Shown piece after piece: positions 7,122-28,146 of a DNA stretch of 49,168 nucleotides (position 1 is its first letter; every line of letters begins with the position of its first letter). A program made the position numbers and the translations under genes. The notes under the pieces were generated by a model. The model worked only from the letters and a program-made list of their open reading frames with translations, was not told the origin of the DNA and ran no database searches. Source of the DNA: a virus; the IMG/VR virus record IMGVR_UViG_3300031576_000074, positions 1 to 49,168 of that record; one strand, written 5' to 3'.

Positions 7122-8777
7122 TTAGTCTTCCAACAACCCCATAATATCTTCCCTACTTATTCGTATAGCATCTTCCTCTGGAGCCTGTTCATCTAGCACA
7201 GCTTTGATAAGTTCTCGTTTAGCATGAAGAATTTTACGAACTTTTTCGTCAACTGTACGGCGGCAGATAAGGTTGATTACCTGTACGCTGTTTTTCTGTC
7301 CAATACGGTGCAAGCGGTCCTCCCGCTGGCGCATACGTGCGGGCGTCCAAGCTGGGTCTACGTGAACTACAATATCTGCCGCTGTAAGCGTGATACCGTA
7401 AGCTCCGGCGTCAGTGCTTATCAAGCAAGGATGCTGCCCAGCTTGAAATTGTTCGATAATCTTCTGACGCTCAACAGGAGGAACATCCCCCGCAATAACC
7501 GGCGCACTAAGCTCTTGGCCCATAAGCGCCGCCAGTTGAGCAAAGAATGTGAATAGTACGACCTTATGTTCCCCCGCAGCAGCAAGAATATCTTGTACAG
7601 TTTCCATCTTGCTACTAGGTATATCCTCAACATCAAGTAGGCGCGCATCACAGGTGGCCTGCTTTAATCGTAGAACTTCTACGAGAATGTTCGCCACAGT
7701 GAGCTTAGGGTTGTTTGAAATTTTCTCCTTGATCTGTTTACGAATGCTGTCGTACAGCTCCCATTCATCACTGGTCATCTCAATATGAACATCGTTGTAG
7801 ACTTTATCGGGTAGCTCCTGTAAAACGTCGGATTTACGGCGGCGGATATAGTAAGGCGCTATACGCTCGCGCACCTGTTCAATGCCTCTGTAGCCCGTGG
7901 TAACTCCCCAATCATTCTTGACAACGTGTTGTTGCACAAAGAGCCAGCCAGGGCCAAGCAACCCAGGAATAACAAAGTCCATTACGCTGTGAAACTCCTC
8001 CAAGCGATTCTCTAGCGGGATACCGCTGAGCCCTAAGCTGTAGCGCCGACGTAATTTCTTAGTACGCTTTGTGCGTTGGGCCTTATAAGACTTGATCATC
8101 GCGCCACACTCGTCAGCCACAACAAGGTCCCAAGTAACAATGCGTGGTTCTAGATCGCGCAATAAAATTTCATAATTAGCTATTTTCAAACGGCTCTCAG
8201 TAGCCCAAAGCTCCTGGCGCTTCTTAGCAGCGCCATCAATAACTGTATAGCTGAGCTGCGGATAGTGCTTATCAACCTCTGCGGCCCAAGTATATTTGAG
8301 TGTGGCGGGGCACAGTATCAAAACACTTTGTAATTTTTCATGTAGCGCCACAACGCTCAGAGCCTGAAAGGATTTTCCCAACCCCATATCATCTGCCACT
8401 AATGCCCCCTTGAAGTTATGTAGAGCATATTTGGCAAAACGTACACCTGCATACTGAAAGGGCATAGGTTGTGTAGTTGTAGGAAGCTCTAGGGGAGTTT
8501 GGTCATTCTTAGCCGCCAGTAGCGCCTTTTGTTCTTGCCGTCCTAGGTTGAGAGCCTGACGAACTTTATCGCTTAGAGCTACACCAGTGCCCAAACGAGC
8601 GGCTTGTTGTTGTAGTGTGCCCAAGCTAGTGCGCGGGATAGACCAAAACTTACGCTCTTTGTGCCATTGCCGCCCTGGCATGGCCCTAATGAGTTGGACA
8701 CTTGTAGGATCATAAGGGAAAGCAACACTCAACGCGCCATTGGGTAGGTAATCAACAACAAAGTCAGCCTTCATCAC
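7122..8777 (-). CDS. SNF2-family DNA helicase/annealing helicase (SMARCAL1-like)
   Basis: The 551-aa protein has about 100 residues resembling a HARP-like substrate domain, then a SWI2/SNF2 core: Walker A in DDMGLGKS (132-136), motif Ib LCPATLKYTW, Walker B VVADECGAM (D222, E223), motif III LSGIPLENR, and the C-terminal helicase lobe with STDAGAYGITLTAAD and the arginine motif DRLHRIGQ. The usual DEAH box reads DECG. Such enzymes translocate on dsDNA and remodel or reanneal forks. Its place in the replication operon suggests fork protection or restart. An ATG three bases inside (8774) is an equally good start. Confidence 0.9.
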   Translation of the reverse strand: MMKADFVVDYLPNGALSVAFPYDPTSVQLIRAMPGRQWHKERKFWSIPRTSLGTLQQQAARLGTGVALSDKVRQALNLGRQEQKALLAAKNDQTPLELPTTTQPMPFQYAGVRFAKYALHNFKGALVADDMGLGKSFQALSVVALHEKLQSVLILCPATLKYTWAAEVDKHYPQLSYTVIDGAAKKRQELWATESRLKIANYEILLRDLEPRIVTWDLVVADECGAMIKSYKAQRTKRTKKLRRRYSLGLSGIPLENRLEEFHSVMDFVIPGLLGPGWLFVQQHVVKNDWGVTTGYRGIEQVRERIAPYYIRRRKSDVLQELPDKVYNDVHIEMTSDEWELYDSIRKQIKEKISNNPKLTVANILVEVLRLKQATCDARLLDVEDIPSSKMETVQDILAAAGEHKVVLFTFFAQLAALMGQELSAPVIAGDVPPVERQKIIEQFQAGQHPCLISTDAGAYGITLTAADIVVHVDPAWTPARMRQREDRLHRIGQKNSVQVINLICRRTVDEKVRKILHAKRELIKAVLDEQAPEEDAIRISREDIMGLLED

Positions 8778-11920: not shown

Positions 11921-12216
11921 GTATCCTCCTTACTATTAAGCTATTACCCCTATTTCATCTTACAGGCTTTGAGCCAGGTGGCGACTGGATCGGGAAGCCG
12001 TAGTGAAACACAAAGAGCTTGCCAAGTCGCGACTGGAAGGCCCTGACGTCCCTTCTCGATATTCACTAACGACGGGCGAGAGATGCCAGCCGCGAAGGCG
12101 ACTTCCTCTTGGCTTAACTCGTATAGTCGTCGCTGTTTGCGTAGTATTGTTATAACTTTCTCGCGTTGCGTCATTTGCCGCATCCTCCTCGCTATTAGGC
12201 TGTTACCCCTTTACTA
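11921..12216. repeat. Duplicated ~36-bp leader sequence (11921-11957 and 12180-12216)
   Basis: Two imperfect copies of one leader precede the starts of the genes at 11918 and 12174. Read on the minus strand both contain GGGGTAA, then TAATAG, then the ribosome binding site AGGAGGAT. The first copy overlaps the end of the XRE gene. The likeness suggests common control, possibly an operator bound by the XRE protein itself. Confidence 0.6.
11950..12174 (-). CDS. XRE/Cro-CI family helix-turn-helix protein
   Basis: The 74-aa product is a single HTH_XRE domain: LSQEEVAFAAGISRPSLVNIEKGRQGLP is the scaffold-recognition helix pair, followed by an IEKGRQ turn typical of the family. ATG 12174 is chosen because AGGAGGATGCGGCAA then gives a 9-nt spacing; ATG 12183 would overlap the ribosome binding site. 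It sits at the divergent junction with the base-modification operon and is a good candidate repressor of one or both directions. Confidence 0.82.
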   Translation of the reverse strand: MTQREKVITILRKQRRLYELSQEEVAFAAGISRPSLVNIEKGRQGLPVATWQALCVSLRLPDPVATWLKACKMK

Positions 12217-12244
12217 TACTATATCTGGGCGTTATAATATACTC
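12210..12244 (+). promoter_or_regulatory. Promoter with -10 box 6 nt before the GTG start (leaderless)
   Basis: TTTACT at 12210-12215, a 17-bp spacer and TATAAT at 12233-12238 form a sigma-70-type promoter. The GTG at 12245 begins 6 nt after the -10 box, so transcription should begin at or next to the start codon. Confidence 0.7.
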
Positions 12245-12439
12245 GTGCCTCGCCAGCCTAGTCCAAAGATGAAAAACCATTTAGATCGGCTACATAAGAC
12301 CTTACGGGGTAAGGAACCTAAGTTGGCTACAGCGGGAACTTTGGCTACCCGTAAGCTCAAAGCGATGGGTCTAGGGCGAGCAGAGGTTCCTAGCTTATGG
12401 AGATACTATAGAGATCTGTACTTAGAAAGGAGAGGATAG
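12245..12439 (+). CDS. Small basic protein opening the base-modification operon
   Basis: GTG 12245 is chosen because the promoter places the transcript start there; ATG 12269 inside the frame is the alternative. The 64-aa product is basic and helical (DRLHKTLRGKEP, TLATRKLKAMGLGRAEVPSLWRYYRDLYLERRG). No family is recognised. Its stop codon region holds the ribosome binding site of the next gene, which begins at the last base of this frame. Confidence 0.55.
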   Translation: MPRQPSPKMKNHLDRLHKTLRGKEPKLATAGTLATRKLKAMGLGRAEVPSLWRYYRDLYLERRG

Positions 12440-12807
12440 TGCGGGCAGAATGGACCGTGCAGTGGTCAGCGCAGAGTGTGCGCGAGGCAGCCTTAAGGCA
12501 GATGGCATATCATGAAGGTCGCGTTGTTTTTTGGAAGAGCCATCGTGATGATGCTGAGGAGGACTTACGCACATCTGGTCTTGAATTAAGATCAATGCCA
12601 GTGACAGGCGGAGATCGCATTGATGCGGTAGTTGATCCTTTGAAGGCACGTCGTCTTGAAGAATGCCGTCAGAAAGTAGCAGGGCATGAGGAGCTTTGCA
12701 AGCAATATCGGCAATGGGCGGAGTTTTTAGAGAATAGCGGTGCTGTTTTTAACCTAAATTTCGGCGACTTTGAATTCTTTGCCATGAAGGCAGCTGGTGT
12801 TAGCTAA
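12439..12807 (+). CDS. Hypothetical protein, 122 aa
   Basis: GTG start with GAAAGGAGAGGATA upstream. The sequence is helical and charged, with VREAALRQMAYHEGRVVFWKSH at the N-terminus and an aromatic C-terminal segment (NLNFGDFEFFAM). It overlaps the next gene by 11 bp. It belongs to the DNA-modification operon by position, but nothing in it points to a specific reaction. Confidence 0.55.
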   Translation: MRAEWTVQWSAQSVREAALRQMAYHEGRVVFWKSHRDDAEEDLRTSGLELRSMPVTGGDRIDAVVDPLKARRLEECRQKVAGHEELCKQYRQWAEFLENSGAVFNLNFGDFEFFAMKAAGVS

Positions 12808-13699
12808 GTTGTTGGAAGTGCCCTATGCCCCCCCTAGCGTAGAAGGACTCTGGGATTTTTGTCGCGAGAGAGAAGCTATAAGACTTCGTAAGGAAGCAGG
12901 TCAGCCGCCTCCTTGGACAGAAAATATTATTCTCCGAAAATTTCATTTTTGTAATATTCATCGCGAGCATGATAGGGGCACTCGCTGGTATATGGGTACT
13001 GTGGTTCCGGCGGCTGAAAACTTTGATGATCTCCTTTGGCGGACGATTCTCTACCGAGCAGTAAATAATTCGGCTTGGTTTTTAAGGTCGGGTGTTGGTG
13101 TTTTTGGGATAAAGGACTGGTCGCTCTATAATACCGAGATTCGTCGTAATGTTGCTCAAGCTTCTAAGCCTTATAGCCCCGCATATATCACCCTTCAAGG
13201 GCCAGATGGTTTAGATCGTAAGACTCACTTGCTAGAGTTGCTAGAAGCTATGGCGCGGAGATTTGGCGCAGGTTTTGCTAGGGAGATTAGGGGTGCGGAA
13301 AGTTTGAAACAGGTTTGGGAAAACTTACAGACCCTTCCCTACGTTGGTCCCTTTATAGCTCTACAAGTCTATCGTGATCTATTACTGGCCGATGCTTTGC
13401 CTGCATTTAGCGACGATGATTTTGTTTACCTTGGTCCTGGTTGTCGTAAAGGTGTAGAGATGCTGCTAGGCATAAAGCCTTACAAGCAGCAGTATGTTGC
13501 ATTGCAGAAGCTACAGCAGCAAGTGCCGGAGGATTTATGGCCTATTAGCTTAGGTGATCTTGAGCAAACTCTTTGCGAAGCCCGCAAGTATTGGCGTTTA
13601 CAGCAAGGAGGAGGACGTCATAGGTACTATATGGCCACCGATCACAGACTTTCTGGAGGGGCACAAGCTGCCGATAGAGCTGGCGGCGAAGTTAGTTGA
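12797..13699 (+). CDS. Putative DNA thymine-hypermodification transferase (aGPT-PPlase-like)
   Basis: The 300-aa protein has WDFCREREAIRLRKEAGQPP then PWTENIILRKFHFCNIHRE-DRGTRW. This ERxxIxxRK / PWT-ILxxFxFCNxxRExDRxTxW pattern recalls the alpha-glutamyl/putrescinyl-thymine pyrophosphorylase family of hypermodified-thymine phages. In that pathway such enzymes displace pyrophosphate from phosphorylated 5-hydroxymethyluracil in DNA and attach an amine or amino acid. A helical second half includes VWENLQTLPYVGPFIALQVYRDL, similar to a helix-hairpin-helix. It lies with a TS-like enzyme, a kinase and a second member of the group. The match is from memory. Confidence 0.6.
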   Translation: MLAKLLEVPYAPPSVEGLWDFCREREAIRLRKEAGQPPPWTENIILRKFHFCNIHREHDRGTRWYMGTVVPAAENFDDLLWRTILYRAVNNSAWFLRSGVGVFGIKDWSLYNTEIRRNVAQASKPYSPAYITLQGPDGLDRKTHLLELLEAMARRFGAGFAREIRGAESLKQVWENLQTLPYVGPFIALQVYRDLLLADALPAFSDDDFVYLGPGCRKGVEMLLGIKPYKQQYVALQKLQQQVPEDLWPISLGDLEQTLCEARKYWRLQQGGGRHRYYMATDHRLSGGAQAADRAGGEVS

Positions 13700-13958
13700 A
13701 CGCTACGAGACCCATTGTGTAGAGTATGCAACTCAGGAGTTGCATGAAGATGGCATTGATGCTTGGCCTGTCAATGCTTGTATGTTTAAGGATAACTTGC
13801 AGGATGTTGAGGAAGAACTGATAGACGCGATATTTAATGCGCTTGTTTATCTATACCGCAATAAGAACGTTAGCGATAGCTTGTTGAAGAGCTTATTACA
13901 AGCTTGGGCGAATTTGAGTACAGAGAAGAATCTACAGGGCCTGCGGGAACCTAGATGA
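13554..13958 (+). CDS. Hypothetical protein, start uncertain (possibly ATA at 13620)
   Basis: The frame from GTG 13554 overlaps the previous gene by 146 bp and has no ribosome binding site there. A perfect AGGAGGAGG sits at 13606-13614, followed 5 nt later by ATA 13620 in frame, giving IGTIWPPITDFLEGHKLP. No ATG, GTG or TTG lies between. The body is helical and acidic: LAAKLVERYETHCVEYATQEL and DVEEELIDAIFNALVYLYR. The EEELIDAIFNA segment faintly recalls MazG-like nucleotide pyrophosphohydrolases, which would fit beside a nucleotide-modifying enzyme. That link is weak. Confidence 0.6.
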   Translation: MILSKLFAKPASIGVYSKEEDVIGTIWPPITDFLEGHKLPIELAAKLVERYETHCVEYATQELHEDGIDAWPVNACMFKDNLQDVEEELIDAIFNALVYLYRNKNVSDSLLKSLLQAWANLSTEKNLQGLREPR

Positions 13959-14896
13959 CACACTTCTATCGCGCCAGTAATTCCGCCATTATCTATCGCC
14001 AGCAGTTAAAGGATCTTGTAGAGAATCCCGACCATATCATAACGGTACGAGGTAGACCTACACGGGAGCTCCTCAATGTTGTCACGGAGATTACAAGTCC
14101 CCGTGCCCGTTGCCAGATTGTACCTGGGCGTAAGCTCAGTCCCTGGCTCATGTTGAGCGAAAGTTTGTGGTTATTGGCGGGCCGCGATGATGTTGCTGCT
14201 CTGGAGCCCTACAACAAGCGCATTAGCGAGTTTAGCGATAACGGTAGAACTCTCTATGGAGCCTATGGCAAGCGTATAGCAGATCAAATTCCCAACCTGT
14301 TGCAGCGGCTTATAGTGGAGCCCAATGATCGTAGGGCTGTACTGCAAATATGGCGCGAAGAAGATCTAACGGCGATTACACTCGATCCACCGTGCAATGA
14401 TTTGGCTATGTTCAAACTGCGCGATGAAAACTTGCACATGACTGTAATCTGTCGCAGTAACGATTTGCATTGGGGCCTTCATGCTGTCAATTTGCCCCAG
14501 TTTAGCATTCTTTTGGAATATCTTGCGGCCCGTCTTGGAGTAGGTGTGGGCACTCAAACTCACCTTAGTCAGAGCTTGCATATCTACACCGATGTTGAAG
14601 GACAGAAGATAACGGATAGAATGCTAGCAGCTATGGATGAACCACTGCAGGAATTGCGTGTAAATGGTCTGTTCCCTAGTCCCTTGCCCTCGCATATTAC
14701 ACATAAAGAATTTGCTGAAGTTTGGTGCAGTGCTGTATTAGATGGTTATGGAAAACAACCTCGTCCATTTCCCTTCTTAGAGTTTGTTGATGATTTCCTT
14801 CAGGCTTATAGAGAGCCAGATAATAAGGATCCATTACGTCATGCTGCTGCGTTCAGCAGTTGGGTAAGGATGGCGGAGGAGTTCTGGAAGAAATGA
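13955..14896 (+). CDS. Thymidylate-synthase-fold enzyme, probable dUMP hydroxymethylase
   Basis: The 313-aa protein has the TS core: catalytic Cys147 in DPPCNDLAMF, the phosphate-binding R167-S168-x-D170 in CRSNDLHWG, N179 in HAVN, and H209/Y211 in LHIY. RRAVLQIW supplies the arginine pair. TS-type phage hydroxymethylases make 5-hydroxymethyl-dUMP or -dCMP. Retention of Asn at the base-reading position (N179) points to a uracil substrate, because dCMP enzymes carry Asp. The His usually after the catalytic Cys is Asn here. With the kinase and transferase-like genes around it, hydroxymethyl-dUMP synthesis is likelier than ordinary dTMP synthesis. An ATGA overlap joins it to the upstream gene. 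Confidence 0.82.
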   Translation: MTHFYRASNSAIIYRQQLKDLVENPDHIITVRGRPTRELLNVVTEITSPRARCQIVPGRKLSPWLMLSESLWLLAGRDDVAALEPYNKRISEFSDNGRTLYGAYGKRIADQIPNLLQRLIVEPNDRRAVLQIWREEDLTAITLDPPCNDLAMFKLRDENLHMTVICRSNDLHWGLHAVNLPQFSILLEYLAARLGVGVGTQTHLSQSLHIYTDVEGQKITDRMLAAMDEPLQELRVNGLFPSPLPSHITHKEFAEVWCSAVLDGYGKQPRPFPFLEFVDDFLQAYREPDNKDPLRHAAAFSSWVRMAEEFWKK

Positions 14897-15774
14897 ACCT
14901 AACCAACGGTAAGGTTGATACTGCGGCTTTGAATGATTTGGTTATTTTTACTAAACTTGAGCAGGAGGCCAATGATATTGAGCCATGGGCTGAGGTCATT
15001 AAAGTTCTCGCTTTAGATGATGAAGATGCCTTATGGGTTTTGAAACTATACAATGCCTACGATGATATAAGTAGTGCATGGAGAGTATTTACGGAATACC
15101 CTTCGCCGAAAGACTGGCGTAATGGGATTAATCGTGAGAAAGTCTCCAAGTACCCTATATCGCGAGAGCGCAGAAATCTCTTTGGTGGCAGAGTCATTAA
15201 ACATTTAGACTCCTATGTTGAATTCCTTGGTAACAAGAATCAGTTTGATTGGGTTTTTGAAGATTGGTCAGATAACCCCGTGAAACTCTTCCGGAGCACC
15301 TACGAGCATTTATTAAAAGTGTGGGGTGTTGGTAGACAAACTGCTTTCGAGTGGGTAGAGTTTATAACGAAAGTGATGGATGCTCCAATAGTACCCCAAG
15401 ACGCTTTGCTTTGGGAATCTAGTGGTCCTCGTCAATCCTTGGAGAGACTTTATGGGAACGACAATTCGACTCCTGAATGGTTAGGAGAAATTGCCATTAA
15501 ATGTAAAGAATATCTTACTCAATACGGTGTTGCACTTTCTTGGTGGGATTTTGAGACCGTTATTTGCGATTTCAACGTCATGCGCAAAGGCCGTTACTAC
15601 CCCGGTAAGCATATAGCGATGTTGAGGGAAGAGATTATGAGCTTGAAAGAGCCTCATTGTTCTCGTTTGCGCGGAGCCTTAGAGTCTGTCATTCCTTGTA
15701 AATGGATAGAAACTCCTGCCGATAAATCTCTTGGTAGACTTTATGTCGATAACGGGGTTATTTACGGGTCATGA
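14893..15774 (+). CDS. Second putative DNA hypermodification transferase (aGPT-PPlase-like)
   Basis: The 293-aa protein starts at ATG 14893, overlapping the TS stop (ATGA) with GGAGGAGTTC upstream. Features include a helical N-terminal domain, a helix-hairpin-helix-like LLKVWGVGRQTAFEWVEF (about 150-168), the LLWESSGPRQSLERLYG segment and the C-terminal FETVICDFNVMRKGRYYPGK motif. The last two resemble conserved motifs (WESSGPR-SLxRLxG; E-xLCxF-x-GRYxxGxxI) of phage enzymes that attach amino acids or polyamines to phosphorylated 5-hydroxymethyluracil in DNA. A paired set of two such proteins in one operon is known in hypermodified phages. Substrate unknown. Confidence 0.6.
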   Translation: MNLTNGKVDTAALNDLVIFTKLEQEANDIEPWAEVIKVLALDDEDALWVLKLYNAYDDISSAWRVFTEYPSPKDWRNGINREKVSKYPISRERRNLFGGRVIKHLDSYVEFLGNKNQFDWVFEDWSDNPVKLFRSTYEHLLKVWGVGRQTAFEWVEFITKVMDAPIVPQDALLWESSGPRQSLERLYGNDNSTPEWLGEIAIKCKEYLTQYGVALSWWDFETVICDFNVMRKGRYYPGKHIAMLREEIMSLKEPHCSRLRGALESVIPCKWIETPADKSLGRLYVDNGVIYGS

Positions 15775-16454
15775 GGGAAGCCCTAATTTGTGGCAAATGG
15801 GGGCTTCCTCTTCTGGAAGGCGATGGAGGATATTTTCAAGATTTGAAATTTCAGTATCTTAATCGACGTTGTTTGTGTTTGGAGTGGCTATTCCAAGGTT
15901 TTGAGAGAGGTCAGACCGTCGTAGATTATTTTGGAGGAGTTGGTATTCTTGAGACGGTTGTAAAGAATATGATTGAGCCTTCCAAGTTTGATATCTATGA
16001 TATCGATGACGACTGTATACGTCAGTTGTGTAATGCTTTTCCTGATGCAAATGTTCAATACGGCGATGCTCGGGAGACCATGGTTAAGCCCGAACATTAT
16101 GATTTGGCTCTAGTTGACCACCCTTACCTTACACCCAAACGATGGAGAGATTGGGATGTTGAATTTGACGGTGTCTTTGGTATGCAACCAAAGTTCGTCG
16201 AAATTGCAGTTGCGGTGCGGAGATTACCTTTGCTCAAGGAGGTATACAGTAAGATACTCGACCACAAGATAGTCGATATCCCGAGCTATGTAATGGGTAT
16301 CTCTAAGAGAATATATTCGAGATATGGGTATTCTGTTATTCGAGCCGCTTCTCTCTTTACTTCGGTATATCTCATTGCCACTAAAAATTCAGTGGGAGTT
16401 CCTGAATACATTCATATAACAGAGACCTCTGGTGGATTTGAATACATTGGTTGA
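15771..16454 (+). CDS. SAM-dependent methyltransferase-like protein
   Basis: The 227-aa protein has a Rossmann methyltransferase profile: VVDYFGGVGILETVVKN (motif I glycine loop), FDIYDIDDDCIRQL (acidic loop after strand 2), VQYGDARETM (motif III) and LALVDHPYLT in the place of the D/N-PP-Y motif IV of amino-methyltransferases. The first Pro of DPPY is His. It overlaps the previous gene by ATGA and is followed by the kinase, so it may modify a DNA base or the hypermodified adduct. A plain DNA adenine methylase is less likely because the N-terminal part lacks a clear target-recognition domain. Confidence 0.55.
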   Translation: MREALICGKWGLPLLEGDGGYFQDLKFQYLNRRCLCLEWLFQGFERGQTVVDYFGGVGILETVVKNMIEPSKFDIYDIDDDCIRQLCNAFPDANVQYGDARETMVKPEHYDLALVDHPYLTPKRWRDWDVEFDGVFGMQPKFVEIAVAVRRLPLLKEVYSKILDHKIVDIPSYVMGISKRIYSRYGYSVIRAASLFTSVYLIATKNSVGVPEYIHITETSGGFEYIG

Positions 16455-16456
16455 GT

Positions 16457-17182
16457 ATGATCTATAATATAAGAGGGACGTCAGGTTCTGGTAAGACATT
16501 TCTTGTTCGGAAACTTGTGCAGCATTATAACGGCGAGGAAATTCATGATGAAGCGGGCAAGATTTTCGGTTATCGTCTACCTCAAAATCTCTATGTATTA
16601 GGTCGCTATGACGATGCCATTAAAGGTGGTGGCGTAGATAATATCACAGGGGCTTTGCATAAGAGATTTTTGGCGCACGGTGGCAGCGGCAACAGTATGG
16701 ACGCGGTAGAACAGCAAGTGCGTAAGTGGGCACAAATGGGTTGCCATGTGCTCTTTGAGGGAATTATTGTAACGAGTGTGTGGGGTAGATGGGTACAGCT
16801 CGCCGCCGACGAACAAGTTCATTTTCTCTTTTTGGATACGCCCCTAGAGGTTTGCTATCAGCGAGTGTTGGAACGTAGTGGGGGTAGGTCGCCTAAAGGT
16901 TGGGCCGAAGGTAAGAGTGACTTACAGATAAAGCACGAGCGCACTAAATTGCAACTCGGCACTATGGTGCCCAAGCAAAGTTGGATGGAGGATTATTATA
17001 AGCGTCAGCACTTTCGCCATTTGCCTGCCGCTGCTACAGAAGGATTGCACTATACTGTGCTACCTTATGAACATGCTTTTGAGGAGCTAGTGAGTATTTT
17101 GGGGAGCGAGATAAATTTCCCCGTAAAGCGCCCGTTAGCCCTAGCTAGCGCGGCCCCCTCAGACGCGCTCAGACGCCCGTAG
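16457..17182 (+). CDS. P-loop kinase, candidate 5-hydroxymethyluracil DNA kinase
   Basis: The 241-aa protein begins MIYNIRGTSGSGKTF (Walker A 7-14) and has VLFEGIIVTSVWGRW, where FEG holds the acidic residue of a nucleotide-kinase Walker B, then FLFLDTPLEVCYQRVLERSGGRS, a lid-like segment. Small P-loop kinases beside TS-like and aGPT-PPlase-like genes phosphorylate 5-hydroxymethyluracil in DNA in other phages; this role is inferred from context. ATG 16457 is preferred to TTG 16451. The last 9 or so codons are made of a 29-bp repeat found again at 21844, giving an abnormal Ala/Pro/Arg tail. Confidence 0.65.
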   Translation: MIYNIRGTSGSGKTFLVRKLVQHYNGEEIHDEAGKIFGYRLPQNLYVLGRYDDAIKGGGVDNITGALHKRFLAHGGSGNSMDAVEQQVRKWAQMGCHVLFEGIIVTSVWGRWVQLAADEQVHFLFLDTPLEVCYQRVLERSGGRSPKGWAEGKSDLQIKHERTKLQLGTMVPKQSWMEDYYKRQHFRHLPAAATEGLHYTVLPYEHAFEELVSILGSEINFPVKRPLALASAAPSDALRRP

Positions 17183-17243: not shown

Positions 17244-17279
17244 TTTACAGCTTCTTGCTAGAGCCAGTATAATGTTACT
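17244..17279 (+). promoter_or_regulatory. Promoter with -10 box 6 nt before the ATG start (leaderless)
   Basis: TTTACA (17244-17249), an 18-bp spacer and TATAAT (17268-17273) precede ATG 17280 by only 6 nt. No ribosome binding site is present, consistent with a leaderless transcript for the small-terminase-like gene. Confidence 0.75.
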
Positions 17280-23045: not shown

Positions 23046-23393
23046 CTACAGGCCCCCGTTCACACGGCCTACGACCGTGACGAACGCTCCTTCTTGCAGC
23101 TGCGGATTACTAGTAGCAGCTACGGGCTTGTTGTTTACCCTTACGTCGCCAGGGCTGCGCACTCCAAAGAGCCTGAGGGCTTCTTGAAGTGTAGTCTTGC
23201 CGCGTTCCAGGGCGATGTCCTTAGCTACTCCGGGCAGTGTTGCTACCTTGACAGTGATTACCCCGCCGGTCTTAGCCTTGGACTTAGCGGGAGTTGCTTT
23301 TGCCCGGTCAGCCGCCTTACGAGCTGCGGCTCTAACAATCGCATTAGGAGCCTTAAGCTTCGTGGCAGGGCGAGCCTTTGTTGTAGTGTCCAT
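23046..23393 (-). CDS. Ubiquitin-like (beta-grasp, MoaD/ThiS-type) protein ending Gly-Gly-Leu
   Basis: The 115-aa protein has a Lys/Ala-rich disordered N-terminus (1-44) and one beta-grasp domain (about 45-115): GVITVKVATLPG, the helix TTLQEALRLFGV, VRVNNKPV and the final strand FVTVVGRVNGGL. The C-terminal Gly113-Gly114 with one extra Leu matches Ubl modifiers that are trimmed to expose GG before E1 activation. Genes for an E1-like enzyme, a JAMM peptidase and an E2-like protein lie just upstream in the same operon, which strongly favours a protein modifier over a sulfur carrier. ATG follows AGAGGAGGTGATAAAGA. Confidence 0.75.
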   Translation of the reverse strand: MDTTTKARPATKLKAPNAIVRAAARKAADRAKATPAKSKAKTGGVITVKVATLPGVAKDIALERGKTTLQEALRLFGVRSPGDVRVNNKPVAATSNPQLQEGAFVTVVGRVNGGL

Positions 23394-23697
23394 TCTTTAT
23401 CACCTCCTCTCCTTTCAAAACATCATCACCCAGAAAATTGACAAGTGAATAATGATTGTAGAAGCTGGATATAGGTTTCCAAAACTTCCACACCATTTCT
23501 TGATAGGTGACTTTATGTAATATGTCATAGCGCCACCTCCAATCGCGGCCCATATTGATATCCTCTTCCGCAGCTTTGGAGATGCGGTCAAGCAACCCAA
23601 TGCGATATTTATAGACAGCGTTGTTGCGCAAAAACATATAGATGCTGCTCATGAGGATTATTATCATTACTGTGATAAAGACGATGTAGTAGACCAT
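23353..23697 (-). CDS. Small membrane protein with one N-terminal transmembrane helix
   Basis: Residues 2-22 (VYYIVFITVMIIILMSSIYMF) are a single strong membrane helix, followed by about 90 soluble residues with several Trp and Tyr. It lies between the E1-like and Ubl genes and overlaps the Ubl start by 41 bp. It could be a membrane partner or target of the Ubl system. No family is recognised. Confidence 0.6.
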   Translation of the reverse strand: MVYYIVFITVMIIILMSSIYMFLRNNAVYKYRIGLLDRISKAAEEDINMGRDWRWRYDILHKVTYQEMVWKFWKPISSFYNHYSLVNFLGDDVLKGEEVIKNGHYNKGSPCHEA

Positions 23698-23714
23698 TCT
23701 ATTCCTTCCTTTCT

Positions 23715-24380
23715 TTAGCGAGTCTGTAGCGTAAAGCTGGTAAGGTCGAGCACAACCTCAAAGATTGCCTTTTCACCAGCGACAAATCTCTTTACCGCAT
23801 TGGCGATAAGGCCACCAGCTATAAGCCCTGTGTAAATGATGCTCTGCGCAGTACAGGGAAGCTGTAAAGCTTCCTCATCACTGTAGAGCATCTGCTCGTA
23901 ATCCTCCCCCGCCAAGGGGTCGTGTGGGTTAAGGCTATAGAGACGTAGCAGCTGCCCGCCCATACGAGCATCAATAAAGAAATCGACATCCAAACTGCGC
24001 AACGCCGCCGCCCATATCTCCTTACGACTAGCCATAGAATCAACTGCCGCTATGACAATACCTTCTAGTCTAGGGGCACTAGCTGCTCTATCCTGAAAAC
24101 GCAGGTTTTGAAGAGATAAGTTTACCCCTGCTGCCATATCGTGGATTAGTTTTCCCAGTGAATGGACTTTAAACTTACCGAGTTGTGAAACTGGATGGAG
24201 TTGGTTTGGGAGGTTGTGGACTTCTACGCGGTCATGGTCCCAGATTGTGATCTCCCCCACACCCATTTTGGCGAGGGCAATACCTGCGGGGCTACCGATA
24301 CCGCCAGCGCCAATAAGGTGGACTGAGGTTTCTCGTAGCTTTTCCATAGGTACAATGTCTAACTGCCTTGTGTAGTCCAT
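23715..24380 (-). CDS. E1-like/ThiF-family adenylating enzyme
   Basis: The 221-aa protein is a minimal ThiF/MoeB fold: nucleotide loop HLIGAGGIGSP (GxGGxG 24-29), acidic DHDRVEVHNLPNQ (D48, D50, N56, Q60; the usual Arg of NLxRQ is Asn), K71, D114 in AAVDSMASR, and a probable catalytic cysteine C176 in LPCTAQS, matching the active-site Cys region before the last helix of MoeB/ThiF. The CxxC zinc pairs of MoeB are absent, as in PRTRC-type ThiF proteins. It would adenylate the Ubl C-terminus and form a thioester. It ends 3 bp after the JAMM gene. Confidence 0.85.
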   Translation of the reverse strand: MDYTRQLDIVPMEKLRETSVHLIGAGGIGSPAGIALAKMGVGEITIWDHDRVEVHNLPNQLHPVSQLGKFKVHSLGKLIHDMAAGVNLSLQNLRFQDRAASAPRLEGIVIAAVDSMASRKEIWAAALRSLDVDFFIDARMGGQLLRLYSLNPHDPLAGEDYEQMLYSDEEALQLPCTAQSIIYTGLIAGGLIANAVKRFVAGEKAIFEVVLDLTSFTLQTR

Positions 24381-24382
24381 CT

Positions 24383-24991
24383 TTAGATAGCCTCCTCCAG
24401 AGTAACGGCACCTTGCTCTAGCAGCATCTTAATAATATCGTCGTTAATACTGTCGCCATTCTTACTATGCTGCTGGAAGATAGTAGGAGGACTTGACCAC
24501 ACTTTGTTTTCAATCTCTTGGGCTATACGACGGTCAAATTTTTCATCTATTATGTCAAACTTCTGCAGCTTTAGGTCTTCCACTGTGGCCCTAATGGGCT
24601 CATAAAAGTCTAGGCGTAGGTTATGATCAAGCCGATGATTGCTCACTAGGCTCAGCATCCAGAGACTACCGAGCTCCGCAAAGCGTTCAATTGTAGCTTC
24701 ATCAGTGGAGCTAAAGAACGACCCGCCGCTCCCGTGGCTATGCCACCACAAGCCGATATCCGCTGGATCTTTCCCTTCTTGCAAAAGCCCATATAGTAGA
24801 TCTTGTAAGGCTTCTGTATCCAGCTCTGTGTGCGCCCTTCCCGCTTCTTGTGGAAGAATAAAGATGTCTGTAATAACCAGACAGTCCTCTCTACGCTCCA
24901 CTATGCCAAAGCCGCTTATTTCAGCCTCTGCTAGTCGCAGGTAGGCGCTTAGCCGCTGGTCTGCCTTTTGCTCTATGTACACCACTGTCAC
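24383..24991 (-). CDS. JAB/JAMM-family isopeptidase (deubiquitinase-like)
   Basis: GTG 24991 is chosen because AAAGGAGAAGAACA precedes it; a longer frame to 25072 has no ribosome binding site. In this 202-aa numbering the full JAMM zinc motif is present: E24 in EISGFG, H84 and H86 in WWHSHG, S94 and D97 in FFSSTDE (HxH-x7-S-x2-D). JAMM enzymes cut after the Gly-Gly of Ubl proteins, either to mature them or to remove them from targets. It would trim the final Leu of the neighbouring Ubl and/or reverse conjugation. The 5' end overlaps the E2-like gene by 71 bp. Confidence 0.85.
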   Translation of the reverse strand: MTVVYIEQKADQRLSAYLRLAEAEISGFGIVERREDCLVITDIFILPQEAGRAHTELDTEALQDLLYGLLQEGKDPADIGLWWHSHGSGGSFFSSTDEATIERFAELGSLWMLSLVSNHRLDHNLRLDFYEPIRATVEDLKLQKFDIIDEKFDRRIAQEIENKVWSSPPTIFQQHSKNGDSINDDIIKMLLEQGAVTLEEAI

Positions 24992-25844
24992 TGTTCTTCT
25001 CCTTTCTGCTAGCTTTCTCGTTTCTCTTGGAGAACTCTTTTGTGAGCCGTGAGTCCTTTCCATCGTGCTCAATAAATTCGATGATGGTGCCTACTAGCCC
25101 TACAATATCTCGTGTAGCTTGCAGCTTAACCATAAGGCCAGTAATGTTGCCCCAGCAGATATTGCGGGCCATACCGTCGCCTAAGATATGATTTTGATGA
25201 CATATTGAGCCTTGGTATTTAATGGGCGTATCGTTGAGTATCCGCATCACCCTACCAGTCTGCATATTTACGGTGATGGTGAAGCACCCTAGCACTACTT
25301 TATCTACCGCTAATGTATTTGTGCGGATAACTAAGTTCGTATCTTGTACTGTTGCGAAGTCCACACCTGTTAAGTTCTGCAACGCAGCTAACTCTTGGGC
25401 GGCTACGTCTGCGCTATTTTTACGCAAGGCTTTTTCGTCCTTTATTGCATAGATACGTTCGTAGTGACCCAGTAGACGTTCGAGTGTGGCCTTAGCTGCT
25501 TCTTTCTCCGCTACAAGCTGCGCTCCTAACGCTCTTGTTCGCTTAGTCGCTGCGCCATTACGCAGCGCCATATAAGCAGCGGCTAGCTCCTTTGGAGGTT
25601 GTGGCTTTGGCTTAACGGGAGGGACTTTCCTAGCTTTTGTGAGCAGGACATAGTTCTTTTCCTTTTTCCAAACCGCCCCCATTAAGCCTAAATGCTTGAG
25701 CACCGCAGCTACACTTACAGCAGCGTCCTCGCCAGGAACAAAGGCCAAGCATATAACTCTGTTGTGTGTGTACAGAACCAGATGCACCGGTGCATTTGGA
25801 GGTACTATCGGAACAAACTTTGTTGGAATGTAATGCCATTTCAA
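24921..25844 (-). CDS. E2-like (UBC-fold) protein of the Ubl system
   Basis: The 307-aa protein has an N-terminal region of about 70 aa, a charged helical linker (about 85-155) and a C-terminal domain with strands LGCFTITVNMQTGRVMRIL, then SICHQNHILGDGMARNICWGN. H216-x-N218 followed by C230 resembles the E2 signature HPN...ICLD, with C230 as candidate catalytic cysteine, and the later helices VGLVGTIIEF fit the UBC fold. PRTRC protein B proteins have a comparable arrangement. TTG start with AAGGAG eight bases upstream. A basic tail overlaps the JAMM gene. The E2 call is my interpretation of motif plus context. Confidence 0.6.
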   Translation of the reverse strand: MKWHYIPTKFVPIVPPNAPVHLVLYTHNRVICLAFVPGEDAAVSVAAVLKHLGLMGAVWKKEKNYVLLTKARKVPPVKPKPQPPKELAAAYMALRNGAATKRTRALGAQLVAEKEAAKATLERLLGHYERIYAIKDEKALRKNSADVAAQELAALQNLTGVDFATVQDTNLVIRTNTLAVDKVVLGCFTITVNMQTGRVMRILNDTPIKYQGSICHQNHILGDGMARNICWGNITGLMVKLQATRDIVGLVGTIIEFIEHDGKDSRLTKEFSKRNEKASRKEKNSDSGVHRAKGRPAAKRLPATSRG

Positions 25845-25928: not shown

Positions 25929-26051
25929 TTATCTTTTCCTTTCTTTTGTGCGGCTTACACCGCAGTCCTTGCAGCGCCAGAGCTTAACGTTCTGTTGCTC
26001 ATGCTTGCGGGGGCCAGTGCAACGGCGGCACAGCATTACTAGTGTTGCCAT
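25929..26051 (-). CDS. 40-aa zinc-ribbon protein
   Basis: ATG 26051 gives MATLVMLCRRCTGPRKHE...WRCKDCGVSRTKERKR: two CxxC pairs and a basic tail, a minimal zinc ribbon. It overlaps the VWA gene by 13 bp and precedes the E2-like gene, so it is transcribed with the Ubl module. Treble-clef or ribbon zinc proteins can act as E3-like adaptors, but there is no evidence for that here. Confidence 0.55.
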   Translation of the reverse strand: MATLVMLCRRCTGPRKHEQQNVKLWRCKDCGVSRTKERKR

Positions 26052-27394
26052 AAGCCCAAACCTCTCATAAAGTCGTTTATGTCGTTGTATCGTGTTATCT
26101 GATTGTCTTCTACAAAGACCCATAAAGCTTCCCGTGCGTACCCAGGAGCAGAGTCGTCAACTACTCCAGTAACAGCACCATCGCTAATCCAATAGCGTGG
26201 AGCCTTTTGGCGAGCCAGCCAGCGTAAAGCGGGTCCGTCTACTACGTTGCTACCATCAGCGCCTATTGGTTCAAGCTCGTAGGCCATTGTTCCGCCATTG
26301 GCTATAATCGCCAAGGCTCCTGCCTTGGCGCGATCTGTTCCTCCATAGGTAGCTACGATAGCGTTAGGAGCCAGCCGTGCAATTTCCTCCAAATCCTCTG
26401 GGTTGATATGCATCGATCCGCTTATGTCTATCAGCAAGCTTCCCAGTAAAGCCCCACTGCCGCGCTTAGTGGGGTTAGTAGCGAAAATTGCCCTATCTAA
26501 TAGCCAACGTTCTGGTCTTGCTAGCCTTACCCCCATAGGCTCGGCGCGACGCTTAGCTTTCTTACGAGCATGCTTAGGAGTTGTTCGACTTGGATGTTGG
26601 ATAGTCATCTCCCCCCAACGCCAATTAGGATTTGTGATACTATCCATTAGCTGCGCTGCGGCGGCTTTACTCTTAATTGGGTCTGAACTTCTAAGTTGAA
26701 ATTGAGCTTCTTTCACTTTTTCTTTGGCGGTTTGTTCTACCGCCTTAGCAAATAGCTTCTCTAAGCTGGGGGGCAGATCTTTTTCCTCTTCCTCGTCTTC
26801 GTCTTCTTCCTCGAAATCTCCCGCATCAGGATTTCCTTCAGAATTTTCCTTTCCTTCTCCTTCTGCCTCGTCTTCAGAATCAGTATTATTTTCTTCCTTC
26901 AGCTCTTGTAGTAGGTGAGCAGCGGCTATGGAGCTATGGATAGTTTCGGGAGCATCTAAGATAATATTCCGGGCACGCTGGAAAATTCCCCGTTGCTTAG
27001 GAGTCAAGCTTTCCAGTAACTTGTTGCGTTTTTCCAGGCAGGCTGTGTTATCTAATCCCAATGCCAAAGCATACAGTGCAGCTTCGTAAGGGTTCTGTAC
27101 GGTCGGCATCTCTAAAAATTCTGCTCCTACCGTATCTATGCTGTGCCGTTGCCAGGCTAGGATTGCTATGCGACAATCCTCTGCTGCTAGGATTGCTGTA
27201 CCTTGCCCTAATGGAACATTTTGCGGGCTGTACTTTACATGTGCCATCTCGTGGTCTCTTATAACCCTACTCAGCGGGCTTATATCGGTAGGTATGTGCA
27301 TGTTTCGACTGCGAATATCTGTAGCACCCTTTCCGGCTGAGATATTCCACGTTGCGGGCAATACTGCTCCGGGCAAGGGGTAGATATTATTCAT
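26039..27394 (-). CDS. CobT-like protein with HExxH motif, acidic linker and VWA domain
   Basis: The 451-aa protein has three parts. The N-terminal domain carries RDHEMAHVKYSP (H48, E49, H52) and AAEDCRIAI (E72), the HExxH...E layout of zinc peptidases and of CobT/VWA proteins. A Glu/Asp-rich linker spans about 165-206. The C-terminal von Willebrand A domain has the MIDAS motif LLIDISGSM (323-327). CobT-type VWA proteins work with a MoxR/CobS AAA+ ring, and the AAA+ gene directly upstream overlaps by 4 bp. Proteolytic or chelatase-like remodelling of a phage or host target is inferred. Confidence 0.78.
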   Translation of the reverse strand: MNNIYPLPGAVLPATWNISAGKGATDIRSRNMHIPTDISPLSRVIRDHEMAHVKYSPQNVPLGQGTAILAAEDCRIAILAWQRHSIDTVGAEFLEMPTVQNPYEAALYALALGLDNTACLEKRNKLLESLTPKQRGIFQRARNIILDAPETIHSSIAAAHLLQELKEENNTDSEDEAEGEGKENSEGNPDAGDFEEEDEDEEEEKDLPPSLEKLFAKAVEQTAKEKVKEAQFQLRSSDPIKSKAAAAQLMDSITNPNWRWGEMTIQHPSRTTPKHARKKAKRRAEPMGVRLARPERWLLDRAIFATNPTKRGSGALLGSLLIDISGSMHINPEDLEEIARLAPNAIVATYGGTDRAKAGALAIIANGGTMAYELEPIGADGSNVVDGPALRWLARQKAPRYWISDGAVTGVVDDSAPGYAREALWVFVEDNQITRYNDINDFMRGLGLWQH

Positions 27395-28146
27395 TCTTCT
27401 CTAGACCTCTTACAGCTATCGCAGTCACAATCTTCAACTTCATCACGAACTCCATATTCCATGGCGCTTAGTACGTCGTGCCCACGGCGACCCCAAACGG
27501 CAGCGGCAGCTGTTTCCTTATGGAGGGTGGAGTTAAGAGCTAGAAAAGCCTTGTATTCCCGTAAGCTAGCCTCTGGCTTTCCGGTAATTTCGGCGGCTTC
27601 GTACACACGATTCAAAAACCCTGCCTGGTGGGGCTCCAGCTCCTGCAGGGCAGCGGGATGTGGGCTGGTAATGTGCAGCCGGATAGCGAAGCGATCCTTA
27701 AGTGCATCGGGCAACGTGTTGGGCTCATCGTTCATAGTGGCAATTACACGAAAGCCCAAGGTAGGCTGCAATGTTTCGCCATTTGGCAAGGTAAGACGAG
27801 CTACCGCAGCATCGTCGCAGATGGCATACAGAGCCGTAAGCACACTGCCGCTAGCCAAGGCAATTTCGTTGATCAGTAGGCCCTTACCCTCGCGCCAGGC
27901 ACGCATAGCAGGGCCGTCGTGCCAGCTAAAACCGCCATCTTTGTTGGGAACGAACATGCCAATAACTTCGGCCACGCTCGTATCATCCGTAAGCGTGATA
28001 GCGTAGGGCGATGCTCTATTGGTATTAGTGCGTAACAAACTTCGGTATCCCGCAGTTGTCTTACCGGTGCCTGGTGGCCCGTACAGCAATACGGGGCCAC
28101 CAGAGATATCGAGGATTGTTTCAATCTCCTTCCAATTGGTTGCCAT
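27391..28146 (-). CDS. MoxR/CobS-like AAA+ ATPase
   Basis: The 251-aa protein has Walker A YGPPGTGKTT, a MoxR-type insert ITLTDDTSVAEVIGMFVP, Walker B LLINEIALA (Asn in place of the first Asp), sensor 1 FRVIATMND and arginine finger DALKDRFAIRL. It ends with a DCDCDSCKRSR cysteine patch. The protein forms an obvious pair with the VWA/HExxH gene (ATGA overlap). MoxR ATPases act as chaperones or metal-chelatase motors with VWA partners. CobS-like genes are known in large phages. Confidence 0.85.
   Translation of the reverse strand: MATNWKEIETILDISGGPVLLYGPPGTGKTTAGYRSLLRTNTNRASPYAITLTDDTSVAEVIGMFVPNKDGGFSWHDGPAMRAWREGKGLLINEIALASGSVLTALYAICDDAAVARLTLPNGETLQPTLGFRVIATMNDEPNTLPDALKDRFAIRLHITSPHPAALQELEPHQAGFLNRVYEAAEITGKPEASLREYKAFLALNSTLHKETAAAAVWGRRGHDVLSAMEYGVRDEVEDCDCDSCKRSREE

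Follow-up and report, generated by a model that had tools for sequence, protein, structure and literature searches.

An amino-acid-decorated base in place of thymine is a known kind of anti-restriction chemistry, and an abstract by Lee et al. from 2022 reportedly gives radical SAM, PLP, flavin lyase and acetyltransferase as the published classes of tailoring enzyme. In the phages M6, ViI and phiW-14, 5-hmdU enters DNA, receives a phosphate from a 5-hmdU DNA kinase and is then substituted by amine transferases (PMC6449724). The 5-(2-aminoethyl)-dU operon of Pseudomonas phage M6 clusters a thymidylate synthase (TS)-family enzyme, the HMUDK_hel protein (gp55; Hel from here on), a P-loop kinase (gp54) and an amino acid:DNA transferase (ADDT, gp51), and its tailoring genes are PALP (gp52) and radical SAM (gp53). 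The Pseudomonas Ab18/PaMx11-type operon contains an ADDT, a FAD enzyme and a GNAT gene, and the cultured Pseudanabaena phage Pam3 has ADDT, kinase, Hel and TS genes in addition to PALP, radical SAM and Nmad5. Unlike these, the TET/JBP-type actinophage operons (Mycobacterium phage LilMcDreamy gp1-gp5; Rhodococcus phage Tonitrus is the comparison for this type of hypermodification, PMC11955845) rely on a TET/JBP oxygenase to form 5-hmU within DNA, employ ParB, Ploopntkinase3 and an Asp/Arg hydroxylase-like protein (AspH), and have no TS or Hel.

The window, i.e. the whole stretch of DNA that we analysed, is one virus contig of 49168 bases and is possibly incomplete. At positions 12797-17182 it carries six overlapping rightward genes in a tight operon, in the order Hel, small helix-rich protein, TS-fold enzyme, ADDT, methyltransferase-like protein (MT) and 5-hmdU DNA kinase; 4-base overlaps (ATGA or TTGA) join genes at 13955, 14893, 15771 and 16451 (Table 1). 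The operon resembles that of M6 in its TS, Hel, kinase and ADDT, but it has an MT, of which no homologue was found in M6, instead of PALP and radical SAM, and its ADDT belongs to a different clade. Likewise, it resembles the Ab18/PaMx11-type operon (kinase 31%, Hel 27% and TS 33% identity), with an MT instead of the FAD lyase and acetyltransferase. Pam3 is the described phage that also has an MT homologue (Pam3_39), although its ADDT is of the M6 clade. With the TET/JBP-type operons the window shares the ADDT clade.

Table 1. Features of the operon and of its upstream flank, in positions of the window.
Feature	Position	Strand	Evidence
Two small ORFs (118 and 122 aa)	12083..12807	+	ORF positions; overlap the operon start
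Promoter-like site TTTACT-17-TATAAT, between the divergent HTH gene and the operon	12210..12238	+	10/12 consensus match; consensus only
HMUDK_hel helical protein (aGPT-Pplase1 type), 300 aa	12797..13699	+	PF18723 9e-45; PHROG 2396 1.7e-43
Small helix-rich protein	13554..13958	+	conserved RYExHxxEY and EEExxDxxxN
Thymidylate-synthase-fold enzyme	13955..14896	+	Thymidylat_synt PF00303 7e-21; PHROG 5131 1e-61
Amino acid:DNA transferase (ADDT)	14893..15774	+	PF18724 1.3e-13, 51.7 bits vs cut-off 26.2; ATG start overlaps TS stop
Protein of 227 aa with a class I SAM-methyltransferase fold; putative tailoring enzyme, new family	15771..16454	+	fold model; homologue neighbourhoods
P-loop 5-hmdU DNA kinase (HMUDK_HMUD1)	16451..17182	+	PF18748 6.5e-9, above cut-off

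The initial annotation had described one rightward operon for thymine hypermodification through 5-hydroxymethyl-dUMP, DNA kinase and transferase steps. Each element that it listed is present where it was placed, but the conserved gene of the small helix-rich protein was missing from its list. The matches of the core enzymes to Pfam and PHROG profiles are far beyond chance, and profiles, phylogeny and gene neighbourhoods give good support to the proposed function; by sequence, the claim that this phage stretch carries a complete gene set for an amino-acid-decorated thymine is well supported. A role for the MT, the mix of two lineages and the missing published types of tailoring enzyme were absent from that annotation. 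The new points are a borrowed transferase, i.e. a hybrid operon, and an undescribed MT-like family that recurs beside such genes.

A possible regulator is the divergent HTH gene upstream of the operon (11950-12183), which faces it. The two small ORFs had no family matches in Pfam or PHROG and are possibly co-transcribed with the operon; after the site at 12210, the next strong promoter-like site is at 17244, ahead of the following gene. Between 11900 and 17900, sigma-70-like promoter matches numbered 19, against 8.1 expected from shuffles. Elsewhere in the window, the minus strand at 23046-25844 encodes a ThiF/E1-like protein (PF00899, 6e-24) beside a Prok-JAB-like protein (1.5e-4, below the cut-off) and a small protein ending GG-L, like a ubiquitin-like modifier, a possible phage ubiquitin-like conjugation cassette. 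On the same strand, at 26039-28146, a MoxR-type AAA ATPase (AAA_5, 1e-20) adjoins a protein of 451 aa that has no Pfam match and, judged by eye, is VWA-like.

The TS-fold enzyme keeps the catalytic Cys and the uracil-reading Asn of E. coli ThyA (N177) and SPO1 gp29, in agreement with the Asn noted at the base-reading position by the initial annotation. Both columns are identical in 71/71 aligned TS sequences (in the alignment with ThyA, SPO1 gp29 and T4, the mis-framed row of L101 was left out). The base-reading position is Asp in T4 dCMP hydroxymethylase and in the aligned CMP hydroxymethylase, and with its Asn the window enzyme falls outside the dCMP/CMP hydroxymethylases (T4 gp42, MilA). 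Many of its relatives are annotated as thymidylate synthase, as would be expected if it were a true thymidylate synthase, the module a remnant and the DNA canonical. We consider this very improbable: the best PDB match is a CMP 5-hydroxymethylase (84 bits, vs 50 for the best TS), its scores against the curated NCBIfam models of true thymidylate synthases all fall far short of the cut-offs, it has neither the Trp pair nor the C-terminal tail of TS, both of which SPO1 gp29 lacks as well, and all the partner genes are intact. In the tree, it pairs with the enzyme of the phage contig L151, one of the loci collected for comparison (support 0.994), and then with SPO1 gp29 (0.971); when the TS sequences of the window and of L151 were used for a scan, only L151 itself and one unrelated TS locus came up. 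The best reading is that the enzyme is a probable dUMP 5-hydroxymethylase: the Cys, the Asn and the SPO1 gp29 clade place it with the TS-family pyrimidine hydroxymethylases predicted to supply 5-hm-dUMP in the M6/ViI/phiW-14 kind of system.

Two proteins with aGPT-PPlase-like motifs had been pointed out, with a suggestion that they be compared with DNA-modification families, and the profile searches assigned both to such families: Hel to PF18723 (the old aGPT-Pplase1 type), and the second protein to ADDT, with a further match to aGPT-Pplase3 (PF18746, 7.7e-8). Hel, a putative partner of the 5-hmdU DNA kinase, is 38% identical to its L151 homologue; a single-sequence scan of viral contigs with it found no relatives. 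The small helix-rich protein, whose true start probably lies inside the ORF, is 36% identical over 99 aa to L151 12214-12720, which also adjoins Hel and TS. It has no Pfam or NCBIfam match, its fold model is poor (pLDDT 49), and a MazG-like motif is only a lead. The P-loop kinase, also recognised initially, has an intact P-loop (Walker A GTSGSGKT) and an alternative ATG start at 16457, and shares 31% identity with the Ab18 kinase and 39% with that of L151. Public records label P-loop kinases of the 5-hmdU type as terminase small subunit (M6 gp54, L138; LilMcDreamy gp5, L004; PHROG 800).

To place the transferase, we used about 150 loci collected from viral contigs and phages (L-numbers) and scored with home-made profiles, a set partly gathered by searching with the hypermodification genes themselves. 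Two mostly separate architectures emerged, one with TS, Hel, kinase and mostly ADDT_c, and the other with ParB, TET/JBP, ADDT_a or ADDT_b and Ploopntkinase3; TET and TS occur together in no locus of the set, and TS is found in three ADDT_b loci. The window ADDT is 44% identical to LilMcDreamy gp3 and up to 51% to proteins of viral contigs, and it is nested in the ADDT_a clade with support 0.999. All the other distinct ADDT_a loci (20/20) have the AspH gene, a 2-oxoglutarate hydroxylase (PF05118 in LilMcDreamy), and none of the 20 has TS or Hel. Among the ADDT loci, AspH and FAD lyase genes occur in 20 (L004, L009-L033) and 27 (L005-L007, L034-L055) loci, respectively; this complete mutual exclusion suggests a 2-oxoglutarate dioxygenase in the place of the flavin lyase.

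The other operon genes point to L151, with identities of 49% for TS, 38% for Hel, 39% for the kinase, 36% for the small protein and 27% for MT, and further genes common to L151 and the window are primase, helicase, RecA-like and SSB-like (24-36%). L151 itself carries an ADDT_c together with radical SAM and PALP, and a relative of the window ADDT was not found anywhere in its 102 kb. Conversely, ParB, TET/JBP (which would be a second hydroxylating enzyme), AspH and Ploopntkinase3 were not found among the window ORFs, and the ADDT clade is all that the window has in common with the TET/JBP-type operons. Since the window ADDT lies in the ADDT_a clade while TS, Hel, small protein and kinase match a locus with ADDT_c, the most economical explanation is an exchange of the transferase, which would make the operon a recombinant of two known architectures.

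The MT has no significant family match in Pfam, PHROG or NCBIfam. The initial annotation had called the protein methyltransferase-like, and its AlphaFold2 model, built with eight relatives (pLDDT 79, pTM 0.80), agrees with this: the predicted fold is that of a class I SAM-dependent methyltransferase, with a Rossmann fold and a glycine loop. Compared with known folds, the VIA Z reaches 16.2 (Trm1, rmsd 3.5, 210 residues), with many other SAM methyltransferases near; a phmmer search of the PDB gave chance matches only. The motif FGGxG is invariant in the family, and in the window copy the glycine loop is kept, as is the acidic residue that follows strand 2. The motif D-x-A-x-x-K-x-H-x-N, common to most members, is partly kept in the L151 copy and lost in the window copy, which alone has DHPY as motif IV (DPS, DPT, DFN or DMS in the relatives). 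Because of these two features, its activity is uncertain, and it may act on another substrate or be inactive.

Single-sequence searches with the window MT (a scan of viral contigs and tblastn in phages) found no relatives, so alignments were needed. Two uncultured-phage proteins in BFVD are true homologues (26-30% identity, 1e-21). Searches with phmmer and profiles tied the window MT to L040, L068, L069 and L101, and MT-based scans added L140-L145, L151-L154 and the cyanophage Pam3; these are distant homologues of the window copy (25-27%). An alignment of five members was too divergent for scanning, and genome contigs scanned with the MT alignment gave nothing, so that at this sensitivity the family was not found in bacteria or prophages.

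After the removal of duplicates, the family is present at 14 distinct loci besides the window, all beside hypermodification genes: kinase in 14/14, Hel in 13/14, ADDT in 12/14 within the stretch examined and TS in nearly all, with FAD lyase, GNAT or AspH in none of the 14, in a count unadjusted for phylogeny. Among 26 ADDT_c loci, MT occurs in 11, FAD in 10 and both in none (hypergeometric 0.0006, ignoring relatedness), the pattern expected of alternative tailoring enzymes. MT, PALP and radical SAM are found together at three loci (L040, Pam3 and L151), and at L068-type loci MT is the sole tailoring candidate, as in the window. L068-type operons (L142, L143, L068, L144, L145, L152 and L153) carry a SNF2-like helicase gene between ADDT and kinase. 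The radical SAM gene of L040 (4461-6884) encodes 808 aa, vs 480 in M6, and an intein-like insert (ending HN before CYVN) interrupts its cysteine motif. At L151, a 287-aa protein (7148-8008), FemAB-type acyltransferase-like by eye and with no Pfam match, lies between radical SAM and MT.

These neighbourhoods bear on what the MT does. If it were a conventional methyltransferase of DNA bases (adenine at N6 or cytosine at N4), in the operon by chance, the hypermodified base would be a plain amino-acid adduct; DHPY and FGGxG recall the motifs IV and I of N6/N4 DNA methyltransferases, and one family member touches the DNA methyltransferase PHROG 363 at 0.084. We regard this as unlikely, since every homologue lies within hypermodification loci, to the exclusion of FAD, GNAT and AspH, the relatives do not have DPPY, and no DNA methyltransferase profile (N6/N4 or C5) was matched significantly in Pfam, PHROG or NCBIfam. 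Still somewhat less likely, in our judgement, is a vestigial or structural partner without catalysis, with the base again ending at the amino-acid adduct: the lost D/K/H/N motif speaks for it, but the frame is intact with 4-base overlaps on both sides, and the glycine loop, acidic residue and good fold model are retained. The likeliest reading is that the MT methylates the attached amino acid. A changed substrate would fit the swapped transferase, with loss of function as the rival. In the tRNA MnmC pathway (cmnm5U to nm5U to mnm5U), a glycine adduct on the uracil C5 methylene undergoes flavin cleavage and then SAM methylation (PMC9626948); this is a chemical analogy from an enzyme that acts on tRNA, with no sequence relation found to the window MT and no flavin enzyme found in the window, and by this analogy the MT may methylate the nitrogen of the adduct.

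The window has sequence counterparts of each step known from M6, ViI and phiW-14, kinase and ADDT included. No profile match to FAD, GNAT, PLP, radical SAM or AspH genes was obtained in any window ORF of this record, possibly a fragment; a tailoring enzyme of a published class is usual, not obligatory, in such systems. We think that the operon probably makes a hypermodified thymidine in four steps, MT tailoring and an ADDT from the TET/JBP-type lineage included. The TS-fold enzyme would convert dUMP to 5-hydroxymethyl-dUMP, which, after conversion to the triphosphate, would be built into DNA by the family-A DNA polymerase of the phage; the P-loop kinase with Hel would then phosphorylate the hydroxymethyl group in DNA. 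For these two steps the inference is strong, as it is for the reaction type of the third, in which the ADDT, acquired from the TET/JBP-type lineage, would put an amino acid, through its amine, in the place of the phosphate. With moderate strength, the MT-fold protein could then methylate the attached side chain, nitrogen and carboxylate being equally possible, in the slot that related operons give to a flavin lyase, acetyltransferase or hydroxylase. Thymidine modified in this way would protect the phage DNA against host nucleases.

We propose, tentatively and as slightly less likely than not, that the MT family forms a tailoring class of its own for amino-acid-thymidine DNA, used where other operons have flavin lyases, acetyltransferases or 2-oxoglutarate hydroxylases, that methylated aminoacyl-thymidines are present in this phage and its kin, and that the transferase was swapped between lineages. 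If so, such bases would not yet have been chemically seen; one methylated product may already have been reported, because methylated 5-aminomethyluracil is listed among natural phage bases (PMC11550810). Phage thymidine hypermodification is modular. An MT-like gene that recurs at the tailoring position suggests one more branch of DNA chemistry, and the swapped transferase would mean that modules are exchanged between phages making 5-hmU by two unrelated routes.
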